Below the pieces are notes generated by a model that saw only the letters and a list, made by a program, of their open reading frames with translations, ran no database searches and had not been told where the DNA came from. This document shows positions 11,898 to 19,156 of a stretch of DNA of 64,000 bases, in pieces. The translations under genes and the position numbers were made by a program. The stretch comes from Pseudotamlana agarivorans (lineage in GTDB: Bacteria; Bacteroidota; Bacteroidia; Flavobacteriales; Flavobacteriaceae): assembly GCF_001642835.1 (NCBI RefSeq), contig NZ_LXEI01000001.1:558001-622000 (forward strand), written 5' to 3'. How positions within the stretch are numbered: the stretch's first letter is position 1; each line of letters starts with the position of its first letter.

Positions 11898-14087
11898 TTA
11901 TAGTTCAGCATAGTGAGACCATCCATCAAAAGCAGAAGTATCAGCACCTGTAGCAGAAGCATTGTTAGTAATAAAAGAACTGATTAATACAGAACCATCA
12001 ACATTGTTAACAACCTCGGTAGTTGTATAATCGAAATTAGCGTTAGTAAACACTAAAGATCCGTCATTTACTTGATCCAATTGATCGTTTAAGAAAATTA
12101 CAGTCTCTACATTTGTTACAACGATATTATCAAAATGTCCAGCAGTACCTTGCTTAAGATCGAAGGCAGCTTTACCTGTTCTGTTACTTCCTCTAACAGT
12201 AACATCTTTTACAACAGCATTAGCTCTTGGAGAAGCATTAAACTCACCACTTCTACTTGCTAATTCGAAAGCGTAATCACCAACGTTATCATATTGATGA
12301 ATAACAATGTTTGTTAAAGTTCCTGCATACCCTTCATCCCAGTCGATAGAATCATCTTCCATACCAACCATAGATAAGTTAGTAGCTTCTACAGTACCAC
12401 CATAAAATTCAAAACCGTCATCAGCTCCTTCAAAAGCTTCACAGTTTTCTACGATAGTTCCGCTACCACATGCGAAGAAAGAAAATGCATTAAATTCGAA
12501 TTCACCATCTGAAGATGCTTGACCAGCATACTCAACGCGAACATATTTTAAAGACCCTGAGCTATCAGAAGGATTGTTTCCTCCGTAAGGTTGTTGTCCA
12601 GCTTCAGATAATGAATCTGCTGGTCCGTTAAAAGGCGCTCTACCGTGTAAAGTAATTCCACCCCAGTCACCAGCACCACCTTCGGCGTTTTTGTTTTCAG
12701 AAGTAAATACGATTGGTGCATCAGCAGTACCTTCAGCGATTAATTTACCACCTTGTAATACCATTAATAAGTTAACACCTGCAAGTTGATCTTCAGCAGT
12801 TACAGTAATAGTAGTACCTTTTTCGATAGTTAAAGTAGCACCATCTTCAACGTATACCGCTCCTTTTAATGTATAATTTCCAGCTGGAATAAATACTTCA
12901 CCTGTAATTGTTCCTTCAATTACACCTGTGTTAGCTCCAGTTCCATCAATTTCAGAATATCTAGACCATCCAGCAAAAGCAGAAGCATCAGCTCCTGATG
13001 CAACAGGGTTTTGAGATACTAAAGTTCCTGAAACATCAGTACCATCAACGTTGTTAACTACTAAGTTTGTGCTGTATTCAAAATTAGCGTTAGTAAATAC
13101 TAAAGTTCCATCATTTACTTGATCTAATTGATCGTTTAAGAAAATGATTGATTCAGCATTTGAAACTACGATGTTATCAAAATTTCCAGCAGTACCTTGT
13201 TTAAGATCGAAAGCAGCTTTACCACCTCTGTTACTAGCTCTAACTGTAACATCTTTAACTAAAACATTAGCTCTTGGTGTAGCATTAAACTCGCCACTTC
13301 TACTTGCTAATTCGAAAGCGTAATCACCAACGTTATCATACTGGTAAATCACAACGTTTGTTAAAGAACCTGTATAACCTTCATCCCAGTCGATAGAATC
13401 ATCTTCCATACCAACCATAGATAAGTTTGAAGCGTGAACAGTTCCTCCATAAAATTCGAAACCATCATCAGCACCTTCAAAAGCCTCACAATATTCTACA
13501 ACAGTACCGCTACCACAAGCGAAGAATGAAAATGCATTAAATTCGAATTCTCCGTCTGAAGATGCTTGACCAGCGTACTCAACACGTACATATTTTAAAG
13601 ACCCTGAACTATCTGCCGCGTCATTTCCACCGTAAGGCTCTTGACCAGCTTCAGATAATGAATCTGCAGGACCGTTAAACGGCGCTCTACCGTGTAAAGT
13701 GATTCCACCCCAGTCACCAGAACCACCTTCAGCGTTTTGGTTTTCTGAAGTAAATACGATTGGTTCAGAAGCTGTACCTTCAGCAATTAATTTACCACCT
13801 TGTAATACCATTAATAAGTTGATTCCTGCAGCTTGGTCTTCAGCTGTTACCGTGATAGTTGAACCTTTTTCAATAGTTAAAGTAGCATTTTCGTGTACTT
13901 TAACTGCTCCTCTAAGAATGTAATTACCTGTTTCTAAAAATAAATCTTCTGTGATATCTCCTTCAATAATACCTTCGGTTCCTCCTCCATCATCACCTCC
14001 AGTGACATCATCATCATTACTACATGACATTGCAGCTAAAAATAAGCTTGCTACAAGTGTAATTTTTAAAAAGTTTGTTTTCATCAT
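11898..14087 (-). CDS. tandem-duplicated beta-helix lipoprotein, partner of a TonB-dependent receptor
   Basis: 729 residues. Lipoprotein signal with lipobox AAMSC followed by SNDDD, an acidic stretch after Cys like the surface-export signal of Bacteroidota lipoproteins. The rest is two near-identical units offset by 349 residues (1047 bp at DNA level). Each carries a short-strand ladder (ATLTIEKG, LIAEGTA, PIVFTSEN, GDWGGITLHGRAPFN, EFEFNAFSFFACGSGT, ADDGFEFYGGTV, DDSIDWDEGY) that I read as a right-handed beta-helix. No enzymatic motif is recognised. It starts 38 bp after the TonB-dependent receptor, in the place where SusD usually sits, so it is probably the surface-exposed ligand-binding partner. 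The operon carries a Pho-like array. Confidence 0.75.
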   Translation of the reverse strand: MMKTNFLKITLVASLFLAAMSCSNDDDVTGGDDGGGTEGIIEGDITEDLFLETGNYILRGAVKVHENATLTIEKGSTITVTAEDQAAGINLLMVLQGGKLIAEGTASEPIVFTSENQNAEGGSGDWGGITLHGRAPFNGPADSLSEAGQEPYGGNDAADSSGSLKYVRVEYAGQASSDGEFEFNAFSFFACGSGTVVEYCEAFEGADDGFEFYGGTVHASNLSMVGMEDDSIDWDEGYTGSLTNVVIYQYDNVGDYAFELASRSGEFNATPRANVLVKDVTVRASNRGGKAAFDLKQGTAGNFDNIVVSNAESIIFLNDQLDQVNDGTLVFTNANFEYSTNLVVNNVDGTDVSGTLVSQNPVASGADASAFAGWSRYSEIDGTGANTGVIEGTITGEVFIPAGNYTLKGAVYVEDGATLTIEKGTTITVTAEDQLAGVNLLMVLQGGKLIAEGTADAPIVFTSENKNAEGGAGDWGGITLHGRAPFNGPADSLSEAGQQPYGGNNPSDSSGSLKYVRVEYAGQASSDGEFEFNAFSFFACGSGTIVENCEAFEGADDGFEFYGGTVEATNLSMVGMEDDSIDWDEGYAGTLTNIVIHQYDNVGDYAFELASRSGEFNASPRANAVVKDVTVRGSNRTGKAAFDLKQGTAGHFDNIVVTNVETVIFLNDQLDQVNDGSLVFTNANFDYTTTEVVNNVDGSVLISSFITNNASATGADTSAFDGWSHYAEL

Positions 14088-14125: not shown

Positions 14126-16924
14126 TTATAGTTTATATGTTAGGTTAAAACTAAAGTTAACGCCTTGGTTAAAACTTTCTATTATGTTACTATACTTTTC
14201 TGGGAACTGCACTTCTTGTGTTGCATCTTGAGTGAAAAGTGTTTTTTCGTTAAGGATATTTCTAACAGTAAAACGCAATCCTATTTTTTCATTAAACTGT
14301 GTATTCCATGAAAAATCTAATTGATTAATTGGTTTTTCATAAATCTCATCGGCACCTTCTACACCTACTGCGTAAATACGTCTTCCGTATGTGTTAAAAA
14401 TCAAGTTTAGTGAAGAATTAGTTTCTCCTTTATCGACCAATTTATAACTCAAATCGGTATTTATTCCCCAATCTGATGCTCCTTGTAATTTTCTGTTTGT
14501 GTTTGTCACCGAAGCAAACTCATCACTATCAGGATCAGCTGAAGCTTCCGAATCCATTAGAATCCCATTAAGACCAAAAGTGAATCCTTCTAAAACCTCT
14601 GTATTGGTAACATTACCAATGTTTAATTTGGCTTCAATCTCTACACCATATATATAAGCTTGATCGAAATTATCGAAGTATGTTCTATAACCTACAGATG
14701 TAGCTCTAGAAAGACGTTCTATAGGACTATCAATAAATTTTCCGAAGGCAGTAAAGGCAAGCACCTCAGAGTTTGATGGGAAAATCTCATACTTTAAATC
14801 AAGATTGTAGTTCTTAGAGTTTTCAATTTCTGGATTACCAATAACTTGATTACCATCTCCATCTTGAAACGTTGTTGGTAGAATCTCTCTTAATCGTGGT
14901 CTCGTTACGGTTTTAGAACCCGCAATACGAATATTTGAAACATCGTTAAGCGTATATTTCACGTTGAATGACGGACTAATATCGAACGGCTCATATTCTA
15001 ATTCGGAGTAAGGCGAATTAATTGAAGTTAACTGCTCACGGTATGTAATTTTTCTATAAGCATACTCTCCTCTAACCCCTACTTGCACTAATAATCGGTC
15101 CCATTCTTTAGTAAAATCTAAATACCCTGCATGTATAGATTGGTCGATAAAACTCTTGGCTTGTGGATCGGCTGTGTTTCTATAAAACAAGTAGCCATCT
15201 TCAAACCCTTGATCAAAAAATGCTTGAGGATCATTCGTATTAATAAAAGGTAAAACACCACTATAATTTTGATCTACAGATATCGTTCTATTAAAGAAAT
15301 CGTAAGAGATCTCATCGTAATTATACCCAGCTTTTAATATGGCGGTATACTTATCTAATTCTTCATTTTTCTGTAAACCAATTTGATAATCTAATTTAGC
15401 ATTTACGTTATAGTTTTCTAACTCTTGATAAAATTTAAAAGGATCGATACCATTGGTAGTAATATACTCTGCTTCTTCACCCTCTCCGGCAGTTCTTAAC
15501 ACACGTCTATCTGGAACATTATTATTACCCAAAGCATAAGATCCTCCAAATGAAAGAATGTGTTTGTCATCTCTCCAAGATTTCTCTCCTAATAATTGAA
15601 AAGACACTAAATCATTTTCGGTATACTTCGTATCTCTAATGTAGAATACTTTATCGTTTAACTGAGTGAATCCATTATTTTCACCTGCCGCTTCTCTAAT
15701 AAAGTTGGAAGAGTTTTGAAGGTAAATGGTATTAAATAATAAACTAAAATTATTATTTCTTTTATAGTTAAGTCCGAATAAAGAAGACTTTTGTGTCGAG
15801 AAATTGTAATTTGTTGTTTGAAAATCCTGCTGTGCAGTACCCTCTGAGTTCAAGGCTCTTTCTACACCCTGTTGAGTAAGAAATGAGTTTCTATAATCTA
15901 AGCTAAAATAAAAACCTACTTTATCGGTTCCATTATTATAAATACTTTGACCATGAGAAATACCAAACCTTGTACTTAAAGGTGCTTTTGTTGTTTCAGG
16001 CGTCCATGAGGTATCGAACATTGTTGCCGATTCTGATGGAGTTGCCGTGTAACCTAAAGTAGCATCTTTATTATAAGGGCCAGGAAGACTACGACCACCA
16101 CCTGTGTAACCTAAAAACTCTAAGTCACCACTATTATCTATATTGAAATCTTTTAAAGTCGTATTTGTATTTACACCTGCACCAAAATTAACAACAGTTA
16201 CAGGTTGACTAGGAATTTGCTTCGTATTAATTTGAAAAGTTGCACCGGCAAAATCTTGATAAATACTACTATTAAAAGTTTTTAATACATCAACCGATCC
16301 CACAATACTTGTAGCGATATAGCTTAGTGGTATAATTTTATTATCTGGATCTGCTGAAGCTAAAGGCAAACCATTAACTAATAAAAAGTTATAACGGTCA
16401 TCTAATCCACGTACAAAAATACCACGATCTTGTACCGTAGTAATCCCTGATACTTTTGTTAACCCTTGCTCTACGTTAGAAACAGCTTTTCTTGTTAACT
16501 CTTCAGCACCAATACTTTGTTTGATTTCAACGGCTTTTTTCTGTTCTAATAATAAAGCCGTTTCACTTTCCCTTTTAGTGGATGTTGTTACAACCACCTC
16601 ATCTAAAGAAGCCGCACTGGCGGTCATCACTATATTAACTTCTTCCGTTTTTCCTGGAGTAACAGTAACAGCTACCTCTTGAGTTTCATAACCTACGAAA
16701 CTAAAAACTAAAGTATAATTTCCTGGTTCAATATTATCAAAGTAGTAAAGGCCATCAAAATCTGAAGTCGTTCCTTTTGTGGTTCCTTTAATTAATACAT
16801 TAGCGAATGCCAAAGGCTCGTTGTTGTATTCTTGATCGGTTAATTTGCCTTTAACCGAACCGGTAGATTGCGCGAATGCTACTGCCGAAGTAAAAATTGT
16901 AAATAGTACTAATAATTTTTTCAT
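14126..16924 (-). CDS. TonB-dependent receptor with N-terminal carboxypeptidase-regulatory-like domain
   Basis: 932 residues if started at the ATG at 16922-16924, which gives signal peptide MKKLLVLFTIFTSAVAFAQ; the open frame extends to 16960, but those codons overlap the -7 element at 16949-16956. Domains: CarboxypepD_reg-like (about 20-105), a short linker VTTSTKRESE, plug (about 130-250, including DRGIFVRGLDDRYNFLLVNG), then a 22-strand-type barrel ending in FSFNLTYKL. It imports an unknown ligand across the outer membrane using TonB. First gene of an operon with the beta-helix lipoprotein. The upstream 11-bp repeat array suggests induction by phosphate starvation. Confidence 0.9.
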   Translation of the reverse strand: MKKLLVLFTIFTSAVAFAQSTGSVKGKLTDQEYNNEPLAFANVLIKGTTKGTTSDFDGLYYFDNIEPGNYTLVFSFVGYETQEVAVTVTPGKTEEVNIVMTASAASLDEVVVTTSTKRESETALLLEQKKAVEIKQSIGAEELTRKAVSNVEQGLTKVSGITTVQDRGIFVRGLDDRYNFLLVNGLPLASADPDNKIIPLSYIATSIVGSVDVLKTFNSSIYQDFAGATFQINTKQIPSQPVTVVNFGAGVNTNTTLKDFNIDNSGDLEFLGYTGGGRSLPGPYNKDATLGYTATPSESATMFDTSWTPETTKAPLSTRFGISHGQSIYNNGTDKVGFYFSLDYRNSFLTQQGVERALNSEGTAQQDFQTTNYNFSTQKSSLFGLNYKRNNNFSLLFNTIYLQNSSNFIREAAGENNGFTQLNDKVFYIRDTKYTENDLVSFQLLGEKSWRDDKHILSFGGSYALGNNNVPDRRVLRTAGEGEEAEYITTNGIDPFKFYQELENYNVNAKLDYQIGLQKNEELDKYTAILKAGYNYDEISYDFFNRTISVDQNYSGVLPFINTNDPQAFFDQGFEDGYLFYRNTADPQAKSFIDQSIHAGYLDFTKEWDRLLVQVGVRGEYAYRKITYREQLTSINSPYSELEYEPFDISPSFNVKYTLNDVSNIRIAGSKTVTRPRLREILPTTFQDGDGNQVIGNPEIENSKNYNLDLKYEIFPSNSEVLAFTAFGKFIDSPIERLSRATSVGYRTYFDNFDQAYIYGVEIEAKLNIGNVTNTEVLEGFTFGLNGILMDSEASADPDSDEFASVTNTNRKLQGASDWGINTDLSYKLVDKGETNSSLNLIFNTYGRRIYAVGVEGADEIYEKPINQLDFSWNTQFNEKIGLRFTVRNILNEKTLFTQDATQEVQFPEKYSNIIESFNQGVNFSFNLTYKL

Positions 16925-16948
16925 TGTTTTTGTCATAATTTCACGCTG

Positions 16949-16956
16949 CAAAGAAA
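16949..16956 (-). promoter_or_regulatory. -7 element of the receptor operon
   Basis: TTTCTTTG on the minus strand (TAnnTTTG with one mismatch), exactly 20 nt downstream of the last box of the 16977-17026 array. This position makes the codons upstream of 16936 unusable as translation starts. Confidence 0.5.
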
Positions 16957-16976
16957 CCATAGGAGATTAATTTTAG

Positions 16977-17026
16977 TGTTACCACATGATTAAAGAACAG
17001 TAACATAAGTGTTATGTTAAGGTTAT
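16977..17026 (-). promoter_or_regulatory. Pho-box-like array 1: five hexamers at 11-bp spacing
   Basis: Minus strand, from distal to proximal: ATAACC (17026-17021), ATAACA (17015-17010), GTTACT (17004-16999), TTAATC (16993-16988), GTAACA (16982-16977). All are exactly 11 bp apart. Direct repeats with one-turn spacing and a TTAACA-like core are the hallmark of PhoB/PhoP-family response regulators. The last box replaces the -33 element. Confidence 0.72.
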
Positions 17027-17143
17027 CTAAAAATAAAACCCACCAAAAACGCATTACATTAAGTTAACATGAAAAAACAAAGAACCTCAATACCAACAGA
17101 TTAGATTGTAACATTTTCCAAAAGACACAAACTTAACCTAACT

Positions 17144-17182
17144 AAAAAAGCTGCTTCCATTTTACTAGAAAGCAGCTTTTTT
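17144..17182 (-). terminator. terminator after the 130-residue receptor-domain-like gene
   Basis: 13-bp stem AAAAAAGCTGCTT / AAGCAGCTTTTTT with a 13-nt loop; the minus strand ends in a T-run. It isolates the short gene from the receptor operon downstream. Confidence 0.85.
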
Positions 17183-17234
17183 AAATTTTATAAAGTCAGT
17201 ATTATTACCTAACCTTATTCTAAATACTTTATGT

Positions 17235-17627
17235 TTATTTATTACTTACGATACCTGAATCATTACTAGCCGTTGTAGCACTAGCAAAAACCGAAGCCAA
17301 ATCATCTAAAGACACCGTACTAGCTCCTAGGTACAATTTTAAATTCTGATCGTTAGCCGATAAAACCTCAACTTTAACTTCTTTAGTTTCATACCCTACA
17401 AAACTATAAACTAAAGTATAAGTTCCTGGTGTTACATTTTCGAATTTAAAAAAACCAGCTTCGTTAGATAAAGTTTCAACACCAGTTTCTTTTACCTTAA
17501 CTTTAGCATACAATAGCGGTGCATTGCCTTCTTCTAAATCCAATAAATTTCCACTTATCGAACCTGTATTTTGAGCAAAACCAAATGCGGAAAAGCAAAA
17601 AACGAGTATATATAAAAATTGTTTCAT
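17235..17627 (-). CDS. stand-alone secreted carboxypeptidase-regulatory-like domain protein
   Basis: 130 residues: signal peptide (cleavage after FGFAQ) and one CarboxypepD_reg-like beta-sandwich (about 20-105). It is strikingly like the N-terminus of the neighbouring receptor (TYTLVYSFVGYETKEVKVEV versus NYTLVFSFVGYETQEVAVTV) and also shares the SLDDL/SLDEV exit. It stops after about 25 more residues, with no plug or barrel. Either a truncated receptor relic or a deliberate free domain. It has its own promoter, Pho-like array and terminator, which argues for a functional gene. Confidence 0.7.
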   Translation of the reverse strand: MKQFLYILVFCFSAFGFAQNTGSISGNLLDLEEGNAPLLYAKVKVKETGVETLSNEAGFFKFENVTPGTYTLVYSFVGYETKEVKVEVLSANDQNLKLYLGASTVSLDDLASVFASATTASNDSGIVSNK

Positions 17628-17647
17628 TGTTCTACTGAATTATTTTG

Positions 17648-17655
17648 CAAAGTAA
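17648..17655 (-). promoter_or_regulatory. -7 element of the stand-alone domain gene
   Basis: TTACTTTG on the minus strand (one mismatch to TAnnTTTG), 20 nt from the nearest box of array 2, the same spacing as in the receptor promoter. Confidence 0.5.
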
Positions 17656-17675
17656 CTACAGATCTGAACGTTATG

Positions 17676-17725
17676 TGTTACCAAAAGATTAATCGTTTGT
17701 GATTATAATGTTACCGCAATGTTAA
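17676..17725 (-). promoter_or_regulatory. Pho-box-like array 2: five hexamers at 11-bp spacing
   Basis: Minus strand, distal to proximal: TTAACA (17725-17720), GTAACA (17714-17709), ATCACA (17703-17698), TTAATC (17692-17687), GTAACA (17681-17676). All are 11 bp apart. The two proximal boxes and their spacers match array 1 almost base for base (TTAATCwTkTGGTAACAC). Confidence 0.75.
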
Positions 17726-17806: not shown

Positions 17807-19156
17807 ATGACAGCAATGAACTGGGAACAACTACTATCCTTAAAGCGCTTTGGCGACACCAATAAACGTATAAGAAAAGAACAAGATGAAAACCGTATAG
17901 GATTTGAGGTGGATTACGACCGTATTATATTCTCTTCAGAATTTAGAAGTCTGCAAGACAAAACACAGGTTATCCCACTATCCAATACCGATTTTGTTCA
18001 TACAAGACTCACCCACAGTTTGGAAGTTAGTGTTGTTGGTCGTTCCTTGGGCCGTAGTGTAGGACATAAACTCCTAGAAAAGCATCCCCATTTAAAAAAC
18101 ATTCATGGATACCATGCTAATGATTTTGGAGCTATTGTTGCCGCAGCTGCTTTAGCGCACGATATTGGTAATCCGCCATTTGGACATTCAGGTGAAAAAG
18201 CCATTGGTGAGTTTTTTATTAACGGTTCTGGAAAAATTTACAAAGACCAACTCACCCCTAAAGAATATCAAGATTTATGTGATTTTGAAGGCAACGCCAA
18301 CGGATTTAAAATCTTAACCGAAACCAGAGTAGGACGACCAGGAGGCATACGTTTAAGTTATGCCACACTTGGAGCCTTTACAAAATACCCTAAAGAATCG
18401 CTTCCTAAAAAACCTACCTCACATATTTCCGATAAGAAATATGGTGTATTTCAATCGGAAAAAGAAAACTTTGAAGATGTCGCTAAGGAGCTCGGCCTTA
18501 TAAAACGCAGTAACGATAGTATGAGCTATTCCAGACATCCGCTAACCTTTTTAGTTGAAGCTGCCGATGATATTTGCTACACCATTATCGATTTTGAAGA
18601 TGGCATCAACCTTGGCTTAATTCAAGAAGAGTACGCCTTAGAATATTTATCGAAAATCATTAGAAAAAACATCATACCTGAAAATTATTACGCTTTAGAA
18701 ACGCAAAAAGACCGCATTGGTTATTTACGTGCACTCGCAATAGGATCGTTAATTAATGAAGCTGTAGATATTTTTATGGAAAACGAAGAGGCCATTTTAG
18801 AAGGCTCTTTTGACTGTGCTTTATTAGACAAAAGTGCTTATGAAGCCCAAATTAAGGACGTTATAAAAATTAGCGTTGACAAAGTTTACCAATCAACCGA
18901 GGTTATCGATAAAGAAATTGTAGGTTACGGTGTTATAAACACACTTTTAGAAACCTATACCACAGCCGTAAATAATAGTTATAACAATACGCCATCAAAC
19001 TACGACCTATTAATTTTAAAAGGCCTACCCGACACCCTAAAAACGAAAGACGACGATTTATACACCCGTTTACTTAGCGTGTGCCACTATGTATCATTAC
19101 TATCCGACAGCAAAGCTATGTTAGATTATAAAAAAATTAAAGGTTTAGGGTATTGA
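17807..19156 (+). CDS. dgt: deoxyguanosinetriphosphate triphosphohydrolase (dNTPase)
   Basis: 449 residues from the ATG at 17807; an in-frame ATG at 17816 (MNWEQLLS) is an equally good start. HD-domain dNTP triphosphohydrolase: metal ligands in RLTHSLEV and AALAHDIGNPPFGHSG, plus the later EAADDICYTIIDFEDG. It converts dNTPs to deoxynucleosides and triphosphate, limiting dNTP pools. It is monocistronic and divergent from the Pho-array gene; a -7-like TATCTTGC lies at 17788-17795. Confidence 0.93.
   Translation: MTAMNWEQLLSLKRFGDTNKRIRKEQDENRIGFEVDYDRIIFSSEFRSLQDKTQVIPLSNTDFVHTRLTHSLEVSVVGRSLGRSVGHKLLEKHPHLKNIHGYHANDFGAIVAAAALAHDIGNPPFGHSGEKAIGEFFINGSGKIYKDQLTPKEYQDLCDFEGNANGFKILTETRVGRPGGIRLSYATLGAFTKYPKESLPKKPTSHISDKKYGVFQSEKENFEDVAKELGLIKRSNDSMSYSRHPLTFLVEAADDICYTIIDFEDGINLGLIQEEYALEYLSKIIRKNIIPENYYALETQKDRIGYLRALAIGSLINEAVDIFMENEEAILEGSFDCALLDKSAYEAQIKDVIKISVDKVYQSTEVIDKEIVGYGVINTLLETYTTAVNNSYNNTPSNYDLLILKGLPDTLKTKDDDLYTRLLSVCHYVSLLSDSKAMLDYKKIKGLGY

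Follow-up and report, generated by a model that had tools for sequence, protein, structure and literature searches.

The two arrays of direct repeats located in front of a receptor operon and of a small gene in the window (i.e. the whole 64-kb stretch of DNA analysed in the current work) are very probably the Pho boxes of a PhoB-driven regulon. The arrays, their spacing, their conservation and their association with phosphate genes were established directly, and from these we infer binding by PhoB and induction of the genes concerned.

Two box arrays at a fixed distance from the -7 element

Array 1 (16977..17026, minus strand), a Pho-box-like array located in the promoter of the receptor operon, consists of five 11-bp half-sites with the hexamers ATAACC (17021-17026), ATAACA (17010-17015), GTTACT (16999-17004), TTAATC (16988-16993) and GTAACA (16977-16982). 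Array 2 (17676..17725, minus strand), located in the promoter of the small gene, is likewise composed of five 11-bp half-sites, with the hexamers TTAACA (17720-17725), GTAACA (17709-17714), ATCACA (17698-17703), TTAATC (17687-17692) and GTAACA (17676-17681). The period is exactly 11 bp on the minus strand in both cases, which is the direct-repeat period of a Pho box and bears out to the base the preliminary description of two five-hexamer arrays in 11-bp steps. The hexamer type TTAACA/GTAACA given in that description applies strictly to one of the five boxes of array 1 and to three of the five boxes of array 2; the middle box is degenerate in both arrays, and the motif is better described as TAAC every 11 bp. 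The two proximal boxes, previously called nearly identical, are fully identical between the arrays (TTAATC and GTAACA).

Each array is followed by a -7-like element. That of the receptor promoter, TTTCTTTG (16949..16956, minus strand; TTTG at 16949-16952), which we take to be of the Bacteroidota type TAnnTTTG, has its TTTG 25 bp from the last TAAC, and that of the small-gene promoter, TTACTTTG (17648..17655, minus strand; TTTG at 17648-17651), shows the same spacing. Counted from the last hexamer, TTTG is reached after 24 nt in both promoters, and the distance of 20 nt reported earlier between the last box and the -7 element holds when counted to the octamer TTnCTTTG. Because the listed receptor ORF begins at 16960, which is upstream of the -7 element, translation is more likely to begin at the ATG at 16936 or 16924.

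Five TAAC boxes with at least 17 of 20 bases matching at period 11 occur at two places on both strands of the 64-kb window, these being the two arrays, and no such five-box site was retrieved from the same strands at periods of 8, 9, 10, 12, 13 or 14. Among 40 Markov-simulated windows no array scoring at least 15 with TTTG in place was obtained, and when each promoter region was shuffled 300 times with its dinucleotides preserved, a score as high as that observed was never obtained. The arrays and their spacing relative to the promoter thus exceed chance. A search with a 17-base pattern allowing two mismatches was uninformative (161 matches versus 178 for the reversed control), its sole standouts being two exact matches, both of which are the window sites.

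Operator layout across promoters

Twenty-four promoters preceding a receptor, lipoprotein or small gene were read, comprising those in the fetched regions of relatives and the two of the window. With the position left free and the gap allowed to vary from 20 to 35, the distance from the last TAAC to TTTG was 25 bp in all 24, two of which are statistically weak. When 23 of these promoters (G001 being left out) were compared with their shuffled versions, 21 beat all 300 shuffles, and the remaining two were reached by seven shuffles (G025) and one shuffle (G014). The TTTG of the receptor promoter is invariant in 20 aligned relatives.

In the 11 promoters outside the genus, the box columns are kept and the spacers are not, with boxes 1 to 5 carrying 2.0, 1.9, 0.7, 1.7 and 1.7 bits per column and the other columns 0.6. 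The middle box is therefore degenerate in relatives as it is in the window (0.7 bits per column as opposed to 1.7-2.0 in the other boxes), and because it is weak while boxes 1-2 and 4-5 are strong, the operator is read as a pair, a skipped turn and a pair. This layout, at a fixed 25 bp from TTTG, is apparently new, as is a conserved stand-alone gene for a receptor N-terminal domain equipped with its own array; no paper describing such an array was found in a search of the open-access full-text literature. The regulatory system itself is of a known kind, and it is the layout and the place of the small gene that look new.

It could be argued that the window arrays are alike merely through duplication of a promoter together with its gene, with nothing binding to either, considering that the small gene and the receptor N-terminal domain are paralogous (39% identity) and that the proximal boxes are identical. 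However, the boxes persist while the spacers diverge, the TTTG distance is constant, and the array is also present before unrelated genes, which contradicts such an origin and renders it scarcely credible.

Array sites and phosphate genes in the own genome

A sequence-only model was built from 20 receptor, lipoprotein and small-gene promoters with the window left out, and was applied to the own genome, where 150 of 4456 candidates were scored. Under this window-free model array 1 scored 62.6 bits and array 2 56.1 bits. The third-best site among the 150 scored candidates (17.4 bits) is located 22 bp before a gene for a phosphate-selective porin (PF07396), which is followed by the only PF01384 (PHO4) transporter gene of the genome. 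This site has three boxes, the last TAAC being 14 bp from TTTG, i.e. one turn nearer with the phase kept. Two phosphoesterase-like genes, one having a PF12850 match and the other a PF00149 match below the cut-off, are preceded by sites of 13.4 bits at distances of 21 and 23 bp; the site at 21 bp, weak in this genome, belongs to a PlcP-like phosphoesterase, whose counterpart scores 20.5-25.7 bits in three congeners. The remaining low-scoring sites fall within coding sequence, precede unrelated genes or are followed by no gene. Among the 150 candidates scored, no strong array of all five boxes was obtained apart from the two in the window, and the arrays at other phosphate genes of the genome are shorter and weaker than these. 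A second porin gene (on C50) has a 10.4-bit match oriented the other way, which was not counted.

The check proposed earlier, that the array should occur at phosphate genes of the same genome, was positive at the porin-PHO4 pair and weakly so at the PlcP-like gene. At the single PF00245 alkaline phosphatase gene, inspection of the upstream 200 bases and of the region ahead of the overlapping gene on that side revealed no array. When relatives are included, the sites at known phosphate genes comprise the own porin O/P with PHO4 and, in relatives, those at porin, PHO4, PlcP-like and PstS-like genes and those divergent to phoBR.

A PhoB-type regulator (PF00072, PF00486) is encoded at G000:C1:178853-179530 beside a PhoR-like kinase, these genes (C1:178-180 kb) being about 0.40 Mb from the window arrays; reading of the own phoB promoter revealed degenerate GTTAT repeats only. 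The PhoU (PF01895) and PstS (PF12849) families had no match in the own genome, and a pstSCAB-phoU set under the same control, as expected of a Pho regulon, was accordingly not found there. Since PhoB and PhoR are present and PhoU and PstS without a match, sensing of phosphate by way of PstSCAB-PhoU is hardly to be expected, which raises the question of PhoR control in the absence of PhoU and PstS.

Array sites in 40 genomes

Across 40 genomes (the own genome included) 65 matches of at least 17 bits were obtained, corresponding to 18 training sites, the two window sites and 45 others, and each match was assigned by script to the nearest gene on the same strand. Among the 45 held-out matches, 17 precede gene kinds on which the model had been trained (seven receptors, six lipoproteins, four small genes) and 12 precede other phosphate genes (five porins, five PlcP-like, one PHO4 and one PstS-like); two are located at phoB loci, one lies between a porin gene and the gene adjacent to it, and a phosphate link is lacking in 13. 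Pfam confirmed the identity of the genes submitted, namely five porins, the PHO4 and PstS-like genes, the phosphoesterases, four small genes and five receptors.

A PhoB ortholog is encoded by 34 of the 39 relatives. An array of at least 20 bits was present in 23 of the 39, every one of which (23/23) has a PhoB ortholog, and among the 16 relatives without a 20-bit array the ortholog is still present in 11, a co-occurrence which is confounded by relatedness.

A different regulator of the OmpR family with similar 11-bp repeats (ArcA-like or acting in envelope stress) could bind the arrays, the phosphate genes then being part of its targets. The 13 held-out matches without a phosphate link would fit such a regulator, as would the presence of other response regulators in the own genome (the nearest being 35% identical to the PhoB query) and, in the accessible part of PMC9603813, the resemblance of the Riemerella PhoP motif to the E. 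coli ArcA motif. The recurring targets, namely porin O/P, PHO4, PstS-like and PlcP-like genes and the phoBR-divergent operon, nevertheless represent the content of a phosphate regulon, and we consider this alternative to be quite unlikely.

Named loci and label-blind test

An alignment scan with the lipoprotein in named genomes yielded at least 555 stretches encoding lipoprotein relatives, of which the best 80 were used as named loci. In these best 80 of at least 555 loci a receptor-like ORF is present in 79, PhoB in 26, and PhoB, PHO4 or a porin in 51. In all seven Flavobacterium loci with flanks (L222, L232, L242, L245, L248, L256 and L267) PhoR and PhoB are divergent to the receptor and lipoprotein genes, and an array of 23.7-37.6 bits is located before the receptor, between phoBR and the operon; the eighth Flavobacterium locus (L274), a short contig, comprises no more than the lipoprotein. 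In several loci, such as those of Algibacter (L199), Gaetbulibacter (L200), Tamlana fucoidanivorans (L202) and Aestuariibaculum (L203) and others, a single island brings together dgt, the small gene, the genes for the receptor, the lipoprotein, the porin and PHO4, and a weakly MORN-like gene.

The model produced 80 matches of at least 17.2 bits in these best 80 of at least 555 loci, a count which is not genome-wide because the loci were chosen by their lipoprotein. They are located before receptors (48), small genes (14), porins (6), lipoproteins (5) and PHO4 (1), and the other six before one PstS-like gene, one stand-alone PF13715 domain, two chromate transporters and, in two cases, no gene.

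A label-blind test was performed on 637 ORFs unlike the labelled genes, in which three in-phase boxes had to precede TTTG at 25 or 14 bp. It was passed by six of the 637, identified by Pfam as three PF07396 porins and two PF12849 binding proteins, the sixth being a 148-aa protein without a Pfam match; with control gaps, consisting of two sets of ten others, one and three of the 637 ORFs passed. Among the labelled genes the same three-box test was passed by six of 16 porins (Fisher 6.5e-8), five of 19 small genes and 36 of 88 receptors, and no enrichment was seen for PHO4 (PIT; 1/30), lipoprotein (1/89), PhoB (0/26), PhoR (0/25), MORN-like (0/35), dgt (0/26) or GT (0/15) genes.

The repeats could in principle be a promoter or DNA-curvature element that is A/T-rich in each helical turn and has no dedicated regulator, since the boxes are indeed A/T-rich, occur once per turn and lie near the -7 element. 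Yet each box has a conserved C, the strand is fixed, and five boxes at a gap of 25 with a score of at least 16 precede none of the 637 other ORFs as opposed to 48 of the 88 receptors of the named loci, so that an element of this type is most improbable. The earlier suggestion of a phosphate regulon is supported by the fixed spacing in 24 of 24 promoters, the phoBR-divergent operon in seven of seven loci, the porin-PHO4 pair as third site and five of the six ORFs passing the blind test.

Two further observations concern individual loci. In two Aquimarina loci an array-like site (L204:1531-1620 and L208:6217-6298) is located in front of the chromate-transporter gene (PF02417) that adjoins the phosphate genes. 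In the phoB loci of two relatives (L197:7760-7862 and L196:9408-9506) a weak array faces away from phoB, that of L197 preceding a gene whose 113-aa product carries a type IX sorting tail (PF18962).

The receptor operon

The first gene of the operon (14126..16936, minus strand) encodes a TonB-dependent receptor with a PF13715 N-terminal domain, a PF07715 plug and a PF14905 barrel. The second (11898..14087, minus strand) encodes a 729-aa candidate lipoprotein of FII type with Cys22, which is invariant in 28 aligned homologs, and with tandem beta-helix repeats. It had no match in Pfam or NCBIfam, and homologs were retrieved from 47 of 60 genomes (the own genome included). The window protein consists of two tandem repeats sharing 80% identity across 339 aa, and in many relatives the protein is a single copy of about 400 aa. 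The predicted model (mean pLDDT 83.5) shows beta-helices, and its best matches in the PDB are beta-helix glucanases and lyases with TM-scores of about 0.2; because these scores are low, the fold class alone is claimed. A comparison of the lipoprotein profile with PDB sequences gave only hemagglutinin chains among the 60 matches listed (E 0.028-0.35), which were judged spurious.

Comparison with known systems

The E. coli Pho box consists of direct repeats of 11 nt, two per site, according to the accessible text of a review (PMC4415409). The window arrays resemble the PhoB operator described there in having head-to-tail 11-nt repeats upstream of a promoter and, presumably, a PhoB-type reader, and they differ from it in that the boxes are TTAAC-like instead of CTGTCAT, in the degenerate turn between two box pairs and in the TTTG -7 element. 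The sequence pattern provides a usable Pho-box definition for a bacterial family for which the literature searched contains one in-vitro motif, and phosphate regulons thereby become predictable from genomes. Riemerella anatipestifer belongs to the same order, Flavobacteriales. DAP-seq of its PhoP identified TTTAACA as the most conserved bases, and this two-component system is up under phosphate starvation (PMC9603813, available part); the likeness is one of motif, and that part of the paper mentions no 11-bp array or fixed promoter spacing of the kind present in the window. PhoB of Bacteroides fragilis binds the pstC promoter (PMC3547664, in part), and predicted Pho boxes are marked at plcP clusters with no sequence given in the portion of PMC4796936 at hand; a Bacteroidota Pho-box consensus was not found in the accessible sections of PMC12872454, PMC4796936 and PMC3547664.

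The closest counterpart of the operon is the PUSIV cluster of F. johnsoniae, which in the available part of PMC8115612 comprises phoBR, the receptor Fjoh_0545 and the FII lipoprotein Fjoh_0546, and in which phosphate depletion gave values of 8.02 for the receptor, 9.91 for the lipoprotein and 3.06 for PhoB (column FC, taken as log2). The window unit likewise combines a receptor with the Pfam set PF07715, PF13715 and PF14905 and an adjoining FII-type lipoprotein of the beta-helix class. In contrast to PUSIV, it lies away from phoBR, which is about 0.40 Mb distant on the same contig, its neighbours are dgt and the small gene, and the lipoprotein is duplicated in tandem. The gene order in the seven Flavobacterium loci equals the locus-tag order Fjoh_0543-0546 of this phosphate-induced cluster (PMC8115612, in part), a match made by gene order. 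The OprP porin of the F. johnsoniae phoBR cluster was not induced (-1.3; same part of PMC8115612), which counts against the Pho-box reading since porins carry boxes here. The term 'Pho box' has no occurrence in PMC8115612.

FI, FII and FIII lipoproteins are 31-36% identical to a low-phosphate lipoprotein of C. crescentus (PMC8115612, in part). ElpS of Caulobacter crescentus, in the accessible text of PMC2996285, is likewise a surface lipoprotein made under phosphate starvation, a likeness of description, and differs from the window lipoprotein in being released with the help of a type II system. Like SusCD importers, the operon combines a TonB-linked receptor, which carries PF13715 at its N-terminus, with a lipoprotein gene next in order; unlike in SusCD, no SusD match was obtained for the lipoprotein, the model of which is a beta-helix, and the receptor scored 90.3 bits against a SusC/RagA cut-off of 368.25 bits.

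Proposed mode of action

Taken as a whole, the evidence makes it highly likely that the arrays are Pho boxes, i.e. PhoB half-sites through which the receptor-lipoprotein operon and the small gene are turned on under phosphate starvation. In such a case PhoR would phosphorylate PhoB upon starvation, and two 22-bp sites on one helix face (boxes 1-2 and boxes 4-5) would each be occupied by a PhoB dimer, with weak contact or none at the middle turn. The dimer on the downstream side, at 25 bp from TTTG, would then take over the role of a -33 element in recruiting RNA polymerase. The receptor and the beta-helix surface lipoprotein may capture or process a phosphorus source and carry it across the outer membrane, and the small secreted protein may perhaps be a periplasmic partner or competitor of phosphate receptors. 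As to the previous proposal that both units are dedicated to outer-membrane uptake, the receptor and the lipoprotein fit, and for the small gene it is an extrapolation.

A more far-reaching proposal, to which we give tentative and rather doubtful status, is that Flavobacteriaceae control their phosphate regulon, which here lacks pst/phoU, by means of a PhoB operator with its own layout (two half-site pairs with a skipped turn, 25 or 14 bp from the -7 element) and that a stand-alone domain protein with a TonB-box-like end might have phosphate receptors, or TonB itself, as its periplasmic target.

The small gene and its neighbourhood

The small gene (17235..17627, minus strand) encodes a secreted-looking protein of 130 aa consisting of a single stand-alone CarboxypepD_reg-like domain (PF13715), which is 39% identical to the N-terminal region of the receptor. 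Near its end it has a degenerate SLDDL, presumably a TonB-box remnant, the receptor counterpart being SLDEVVV. No match was found in PHROGs, and a fold predicted without an alignment was a poor model (mean pLDDT 38.1) and was discarded. This uncharacterised protein, kept with its own array, is a candidate for a part in TonB-dependent uptake.

Array 2 separates the small gene from a divergently oriented dgt-like gene (17807-19156), which lies beside the operon in many relatives. Table 1 of PMC8115612, a paper available in part, contains Fjoh_3841, a strongly phosphate-induced 'Tbdt' with PF13620 only and no plug or barrel, which could be a stand-alone domain protein like that of the small gene. 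Stand-alone genes for receptor N-terminal domains also occur elsewhere in phosphate clusters (L251:4385-4711, L237:11371-11778, L255:12476-12868 and L257:12861-13262), each of them preceded by an array-like site.
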